Shown one piece after another: positions 21,983 to 22,551 of a stretch of DNA of 33,075 nucleotides. The position numbers were made by a program, and so were the translations under genes. The stretch lies in the NCBI GenBank assembly GCA_013695595.1, contig JACDAE010000756.1, positions 1 through 33,075 of the forward strand. Direction: 5' to 3'. The notes below the pieces were generated by a model. The model made no database searches. It was not told where the DNA came from and saw nothing but the letters and a program-made list of their open reading frames with translations. Each line of letters begins with the position of its first letter. The first letter of the stretch is position 1. The stretch comes from Ktedonobacteraceae bacterium (GTDB lineage Bacteria; Chloroflexota; Ktedonobacteria; Ktedonobacterales; Ktedonobacteraceae).

Positions 21983-22011
21983 TTGACATTTTCCATTCTC
22001 CGATTTATAAT
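21983..22011 (+). promoter_or_regulatory. Perfect-consensus sigma70 promoter TTGACA-N17-TATAAT
   Basis: -35 at 21983-21988, -10 at 22006-22011, spacer 17 nt. Confidence 0.85.
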
Positions 22012-22022
22012 TCGTACAACAC

Positions 22023-22044
22023 ATACGTACAAAATCGTACGTAT
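22023..22044. promoter_or_regulatory. Palindromic candidate operator ATACGTAC-N6-GTACGTAT
   Basis: 8-bp perfect arms just downstream of the expected TSS. Confidence 0.65.
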
Positions 22045-22065
22045 CATTAGAGAAAGAGGAAACAT

Positions 22066-22551
22066 ATGCCATATAGTAGAGGCTATCTGCTAGGGCGACT
22101 GCTGGTTCGCCTGGGACAACTGGAAGCGCTGGAAGCACCTGTCGAGCAAATATATCAGCAAGCTATCACAACTCCTCCACCGGTGTTTGCAAAAGCACTC
22201 GCTTCATTGATTGAGGCAGGAAAAGAGGAATCAATACGGGAGATGCTGAGGCTTTTACCAATTAATGCATTTGACGGCGGCCTTAACTGGCGTGAACGTG
22301 GTGCGTTCGCCCTTGGCTTCTCTCATGAACGAGCGGGCTATACAGCACCTCTAGAAGAGGATTCCGAGGGGAGTGACCAGGAAGGAGATCTGAGCGACCG
22401 CTATGAGTTTCGCATCGAGCAAGGTTTGAAAGAATGGATCAAAAATAATGGCGGCGGCGCGTTTGTACGGACAGTGTTACGTACAGAACAGGCTAAGCAA
22501 CGGCAGCAACCCGATGATGCAACTCCTCAAACACAGCCCTTCGCTTCATGA
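22066..22551 (+). CDS. Stand-alone protein resembling the C-terminal (Cas11c-like) region of Cas8c/Csd1, with a possible ribbon-helix-helix-like tail
   Basis: GYLLGRLLVRLGQLEALE...IYQQAITTPPPVFAKALASL...LNWRERGAFALGFSHERAGY matches the pattern YxLGRLFxxLE...AxxTPxxVFxxLL...LxxxxQGxFxLGYYHQR of Csd1 C-termini; tail YEFRIEQGLKEWIKNNGGGAFVRTVLRTEQ. RBS AGAGGA. Confidence 0.65.
   Translation: MPYSRGYLLGRLLVRLGQLEALEAPVEQIYQQAITTPPPVFAKALASLIEAGKEESIREMLRLLPINAFDGGLNWRERGAFALGFSHERAGYTAPLEEDSEGSDQEGDLSDRYEFRIEQGLKEWIKNNGGGAFVRTVLRTEQAKQRQQPDDATPQTQPFAS

Follow-up and report, generated by a model that had tools for sequence, protein, structure and literature searches.

The 33,075-nucleotide stretch of Ktedonobacteraceae DNA analysed here (the window; contig C544 of source assembly G000, which comprises 6.7 Mb in 809 contigs and is 88.6% complete) carries a gene for a 161-amino-acid (aa) protein whose sequence is homologous to the C-terminus of Cas8c, the part that forms the small subunit Cas11c of type I-C CRISPR (clustered regularly interspaced short palindromic repeats) effector complexes, or Cascade. 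On balance, we read this gene as encoding a self-regulating, phage-derived mimic of the small subunit of type I-C Cascade, a candidate anti-CRISPR fused to an autorepressor. Homologs in phages and a prophage, together with a C-terminal tail that is paired with a conserved operator, speak for such a self-repressing mimic over an exaptation that is purely regulatory. The gene and its parts are as follows.

21983-22011, + strand: sigma-70-type promoter TTGACA-17-TATAAT, agreeing with the consensus at 12/12 positions
22024-22043, + strand: predicted operator, inverted pair TACGTAC ... GTACGTA, just 3' of the -10 element (ACGTAC-N6-GTACGT = 22025-22042)
22055-22060, + strand: likely ribosome-binding site AGAGGA (direct reading)
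22066-22551, + strand: 161-aa gene with Cas11c-like head, acidic linker and ribbon-helix-helix (RHH)-like tail (from the list of open reading frames, ORFs)
22075-22344, + strand: Cas8c/Csd1 C-terminal (Cas11c-like) domain, residues 4-93, modelled as a five-helix bundle (profiles and model)
22390-22509, + strand: tail domain, residues ~109-148, strand-helix-GG-helix, predicted RHH autorepressor

The original prediction, made from the letters of the window alone, had recognised the C-terminal blocks of Cas8c/Csd1 in this protein, and profile searches bear it out. Alone, the window protein matches PF09709 (E = 8.5e-4, model positions 452-556 of 559) and TIGR01863 (E = 0.0084), and three Cas8c models are its sole matches in a PADLOC scan; these scores lie below the curated cut-offs of all three libraries (Pfam, TIGR01863, PADLOC), and they fall exclusively on the extreme C-terminus of Cas8c/Csd1 families. 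A viral homolog (P0006) exceeds the Pfam cut-off (42.1 versus 27 bits, 6.3e-11), a second one (P0007) matches the Cas8c profile at 3.6e-9, and all 15 annotated plasmid matches of P0006 are cas8c. An alignment of five free-standing homologs that contains no Cas8c (A1; window, Dictyobacter aurantiacus, D. kobayashii, the Ktedonobacterales metagenome-assembled genome G043, and G011) was compared with the PDB and matched ten sequences, all of them Cas8c/Cas11c, with E-values from 2.3e-7 (8g9s_H) to 6.6e-5, the next match being at 0.025. Across 47 genomes of the order and 400 Chloroflexota genomes, the A1 profile and a later one (A9) matched only free-standing genes and the C-termini of long Cas8c-type ORFs, which measured 507-690 aa in the Chloroflexota set. 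In a tree of the heads, branches were long, and the free-standing proteins were neither resolved as a single clade nor excluded from one.

The predicted fold agrees with the profiles. An AlphaFold model of P0007, built on a seven-sequence alignment, had a pLDDT (predicted local distance difference test) above 90 over residues 11-90, and Foldseek returned seven matches with a probability of at least 0.94, all of them chains of type I-C Cascade, every other match being at or below 0.08. The best template modelling (TM) score was 0.64 (by target length) and the best E-value a modest 0.0087; the main weight therefore rests on the sequence profiles. The model of the window protein behaved in the same way, more weakly, and the Cas11 helical bundle is present in the predicted models of both proteins. 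Two uncharacterised siphovirus proteins in BFVD, A0A8S5LWF5 and A0A8S5QYQ3, also match the fold of the window model (probabilities of 1.00 and 0.98), and phrog_12690 weakly matches two of the heads; these possibly belong to a wider set of phage Cas11-like proteins.

Seven copies of the gene were found, namely in the window, in the two Dictyobacter species, in a prophage (G011), on a phage contig of G043 and on two other viral contigs. The G011 copy, which is also in IMG/VR, adjoins tail, lysis and holin-like genes, and the G043 copy lies on a 63-kb contig with a terminase large subunit and a portal gene. Of the other two, IMG/VR 3300038400_000028 (L079/L080) has a terminase small subunit and an amidase nearby, and IMG/VR 3300048592_000443 (L081) has tape measure and tail genes immediately upstream. 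These homologs are encoded by phages or mobile elements, as are AcrIB4-type anti-CRISPRs. Small unrelated ORFs stand between the double-box promoter described below and the Cas11c-like gene, in the same operon, at ~5778-6005 of L080 and ~5705-5985 of L081, and by position they are candidate anti-defence genes. Other matches were set aside: four of the five from the search that yielded L079 were full Cas8c, leaving only L079 as free-standing, and two matches to a Cas8c query in phage records proved to be complete Cas8c ORFs on unverified faecal contigs. Searches of phage records by tblastn with the window protein, the G011 copy and P0006 gave no match, and scans of viral contigs with A1, P0002 and P0003 gave no relative.

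The window and Dictyobacter copies have chromosomal surroundings. In the window, the surrounding genes are ordinary chromosomal ones: a gene for an ABC transporter ATPase lies upstream, and the downstream side holds a convergent short-chain dehydrogenase gene as well as genes of beta-oxidation; in Dictyobacter, neighbours are common to both species. The gene, chromosomal and without phage neighbours, has therefore been retained by the host. In line with the original prediction, it has its own promoter and stands apart from any CRISPR locus, with no cas gene among the window ORFs and no direct repeats of at least 20 bp around the gene. Between D. aurantiacus and D. kobayashii the gene is under purifying selection, with dN (nonsynonymous divergence) of 0.061, dS (synonymous divergence) of 1.29, which is near saturation, and a ratio of 0.047, against 0.09-0.10 for neighbouring genes. 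The D. kobayashii copy (L021:9116-9560) carries a one-base frameshift in a run of C, downstream of which the tail is still well conserved; this may be recent decay or a sequencing error.

In all intact copies, the head is joined through an acidic or variable linker to a strand-helix-helix tail of ~40 aa. The G043 tail (P0003) exceeds the cut-off of RHH_1 (PF01402, E = 4e-5), the sole RHH_1 match listed in that genome, and the other tails share the pattern RYELRxD..LKxWxKxxGG..IRxLLR. The RHH-like tail that had been proposed for the window protein is thus favoured indirectly, by a significant match of a homolog at the same place and by a conserved palindromic box pair in the promoter; the window tail itself gave no significant RHH match in Pfam, with the tail profile against the PDB (where nothing reached significance) or by comparison of hidden Markov models (HMM-HMM), in which the score fell within the shuffled range for these very divergent tails.

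The inverted pair ACGTAC-N6-GTACGT was first seen upstream of the gene in the window and D. kobayashii and was then tested genome-wide. G000, D. aurantiacus and D. kobayashii each have it once, in every case directly upstream of this gene; G006, which lacks the gene, has two unrelated sites. In the window, TTGACA-17-TATAAT is followed by ACATACGTACAAAATCGTACGTATC and then by the purine-rich ribosome site, and a third TACGTAC box lies at 22478-22484, within the 3' end of the gene. In two viral loci, GTACGTAC is present twice, 21-22 bp apart, with one box in the -35/-10 spacer and the other after the -10 element. Paired TACGTA boxes thus stand at the promoter in five loci of the seven copies, forming an inverted repeat in the gene's own promoter like those of autorepressors fused from anti-CRISPR (Acr) and anti-CRISPR-associated (Aca) proteins. 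The tail is predicted to bind these boxes.

As a forward test, viral contigs were scanned with the operator alone (GTACGTAC-N12..15-GTACGTAC), which gave 97 stretches, 80 of which were scanned further. This yielded one new locus, L132 (IMGVR_UViG_3300027857_000023), with the same promoter layout as the viral loci. The second gene of its operon (2103-2591) encodes a protein of 162 aa that ends in the tail (last 40 residues, profile 1.3e-14), and the ~120-aa head of this protein is not detectably Cas11c-like and had no match in Pfam, PHROGs or the PDB. The same tail and promoter here accompany another head. On this one example, tail and operator stay together and the head seems exchangeable on the tail/operator unit; this co-occurrence also lends indirect support to the predicted binding and repression by the tail. 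The L132 protein is a candidate new anti-defence protein. The operon's first gene (1685-2134, 149 aa) matches phrog_16123, a family of unknown function, at 1.1e-24. Most other box-pair contigs showed no recognisable tail within the stretches scanned, so the box pair alone is not specific. Two viral contigs, 3300027007_000025 and 3300011112_000003 (L137, L141, L147; L138, L142), hold three spread GTACGTAC box pairs each and no recognisable tail protein in their scanned parts; these pairs could be operators of another repressor.

Tentatively, and with less confidence than we place in the mimic itself, a modular phage cassette may be envisaged in which a portable self-repressing tail and its GTACGTAC operator pair carry different anti-defence heads. 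One head would be a Cas11c mimic stripped of its charge and acting as a poison of type I-C Cascade, the L132 head would represent a second type of anti-CRISPR or anti-defence protein that is still undescribed, and hosts such as Dictyobacter would have kept the Cas11c version.

What the heads have kept and lost bears on their mode of action. The belly of type I-C Cascade is formed by two copies of Cas11c, which is identical to the Cas8c C-terminus and is produced from cas8c by internal translation; this belly offers the non-target strand a positively charged channel (PMC7684278). The free-standing heads retain Y-x2-GRL, the proline of helix 2 and FxLGYYH-x-R. Nine columns are at least 60% K/R in Cas8c C-termini, and in seven of these only 0-2 basic residues remain among the seven free-standing proteins; the net charge of the domain is -0.7, compared with +3.3 in Cas8c (rank test p = 4e-4, indicative only as the sequences are related). 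The conserved positive surface with which true Cas11c receives the non-target strand is therefore missing from the free-standing heads, and the loss of most conserved basic residues suggests a poison subunit, one that still packs but handles DNA badly.

Under this reading, the N-terminal ~93 residues would fold like Cas11c with most conserved basic residues gone, and the head would be taken up into the belly that Cas8c and Cas11c form in type I-C Cascade, or would compete for a place there. Once incorporated, it would spoil the handling of the non-target strand and so act as an anti-CRISPR, by analogy with known Cas-like inhibitors. The C-terminal ~40 residues would make up a repressor of strand-helix-helix type that dimerises, binds the paired TACGTA boxes (ATACGTAC...GTACGTAT) in its own promoter and represses it, as in fused anti-CRISPR/Aca proteins, and the chromosomal copies in the window genome and in Dictyobacter would have been kept by the host.

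Several findings weigh against this reading. Type I-C is present in only two of the five gene-carrying genomes, D. aurantiacus, whose locus is full, and G043, in both cases elsewhere in the genome; by hand count, the co-occurrence in the order is not significant. Type I-C genes were not found in the window genome, G026 or G011, and the window copy is therefore without an obvious present target. A dN/dS of ~0.05 on the Dictyobacter chromosome suggests use by the host and not a plain phage weapon. The most divergent copies, those of G043 and G011, lack the TACGTA pair, and the window tail falls short of a significant RHH match. The chromosomal copy may at present be a residual anti-CRISPR, a domesticated brake on CRISPR or a plain regulator.

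The last of these roles was part of the original prediction, which had proposed an exapted Cas11-like module turned into a small regulator. The free-standing Cas11c-like domain, the tail of DNA-binding type and the promoter of its own remain from that proposal; the phage homologs and the operator that goes with the tail make a purely regulatory role the less likely one. In such a scenario, which we regard as possible but doubtful, the Cas11-like bundle would serve for oligomerisation or for non-specific binding of nucleic acids in an autorepressor acting on itself and perhaps on a neighbour, with CRISPR no longer involved. The conserved operator and tail, the strong purifying selection on the Dictyobacter chromosome and the lack of any type I-C found in the window genome would all fit, as would the phosphoesterase-like ORF that begins 6 bp past the stop codon in D. 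aurantiacus. In phages, however, the head remains recognisably Cas11c and is kept as well as the tail; L132 joins the same tail to a different head, and the tail therefore does not need the Cas11 bundle; and the operator pair occurs once per genome, so there is no wider regulon with that site.

It is unlikely that the chromosomal copies have instead been domesticated to restrain or tune CRISPR, whether an own or incoming type I-C system or another type I effector, of which the resident type I-D is one; avoidance of self-targeting after the gain of a prophage or plasmid would be one such use. Host retention at a dN/dS of ~0.05 would agree with this, and the window genome does hold two type I loci, one of type I-D (with Csc1, Csc2 and Csc3) and one marked by a DevR-type Cas7 and Cas3. 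D. aurantiacus combines the gene with its full type I-C locus, and the copy is frameshifted in D. kobayashii, where, as in G011, no cas1 was found. This pattern comes from a sample of three genomes, however, the frameshift, a single base in a run of C, may have arisen very recently or in sequencing, and no link between a Cas11c mimic and type I-D is apparent.

A genuine accessory Cas11c subunit acting in trans for a type I-C effector, the other role originally suggested, is very improbable. The Cas11c fold and key motifs are retained, but neither Cas7c nor a full Cas8c was found in the 88.6%-complete host assembly, whose two CRISPR loci are of the other types just named, and type I-C genes were likewise not found in G026 and G011. 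Moreover, the conserved basic columns are lost, the gene is phage-encoded, and internal translation of cas8c already supplies Cas11c (PMC7684278). Elsewhere, in genome G002, where no Cas7c was found, a 203-aa open frame (C182:9438-9998, L015) matches only the N-terminal third of Cas8c (2.5e-27) and is a truncated or contig-edge gene. That the window gene is a decaying cas8c fragment with its 3' end kept by chance, as the frameshifted D. kobayashii copy might hint, is refuted by the dN/dS of 0.05, the perfect promoter and conserved operator, and the same head-tail fusion in unrelated viral contigs.

Anti-CRISPRs derived from Cas proteins have been described only newly. If the mimic reading is true, the gene would be a second case, after AcrIB4, of mimicry of the Cas8 C-terminus, in another subtype, with a testable poison-subunit mechanism based on the lost basic surface, and it would be an instance of a CRISPR mimic of phage type that bacterial chromosomes retain under purifying selection. 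The tail and operator also provide a search handle, which has already yielded a new head in L132.

Set against true Cas11c and the Cas8c C-terminal domain (PDB 7kha, 8dex, 8g9s, 9jhb), the protein shares the sequence profile, the predicted fold and the motifs Y-x2-GRL and FxLGYYH-(Q/E)-(R/K). It differs in being free-standing, whereas true Cas11c is encoded inside the cas8c of a type I-C locus, in having no cas neighbours, in being ~15 residues shorter, and in its lost basic positions, extra C-terminal tail, and own promoter and operator. The resemblance to RHH_1/CopG repressors (PF01402) lies in the G043 tail, which is above the Pfam cut-off, and, for the other tails, in the same predicted strand-helix-helix order with a palindromic operator; the tails of the shared pattern do not themselves match PF01402.

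Among inhibitors, AcrIB4 is a 9.1-kDa phage homolog of the Cas8b C-terminal domain, described as impairing the type I system to which it is similar (Katz et al. 2024, reviewed in PMC13131331); its mechanism is given as unclear in what the review says of it, and AcrIB3, which replaces Cas5, further illustrates the phage use of Cas homologs as inhibitors (PMC13131331). Like AcrIB4, the window protein would be a phage-type mimic of a Cas8 C-terminal domain; AcrIB4 is of type I-B and is given no regulator domain in that part of the review's description, while here a type I-C head carries a tail of DNA-binding type that has an operator of its own. AcrIF24 unites a CRISPR inhibitor and a DNA-binding domain in a single protein that represses its own promoter, and AcrIIA1 and AcrIIA13-15 are named as similar (PMC9001735). 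Its inverted repeat lies between -35 and -10, as does one box in the viral loci here; unlike the present protein, with its RHH-like tail and putative activity, AcrIF24 has a helix-turn-helix, an inhibitor part that is not a Cas homolog, and demonstrated activity. By analogy with these two systems, the candidate would unite two traits: an autorepressor built into the protein, as in AcrIF24, and mimicry of the Cas8 C-terminus, as in AcrIB4 and here of type I-C.
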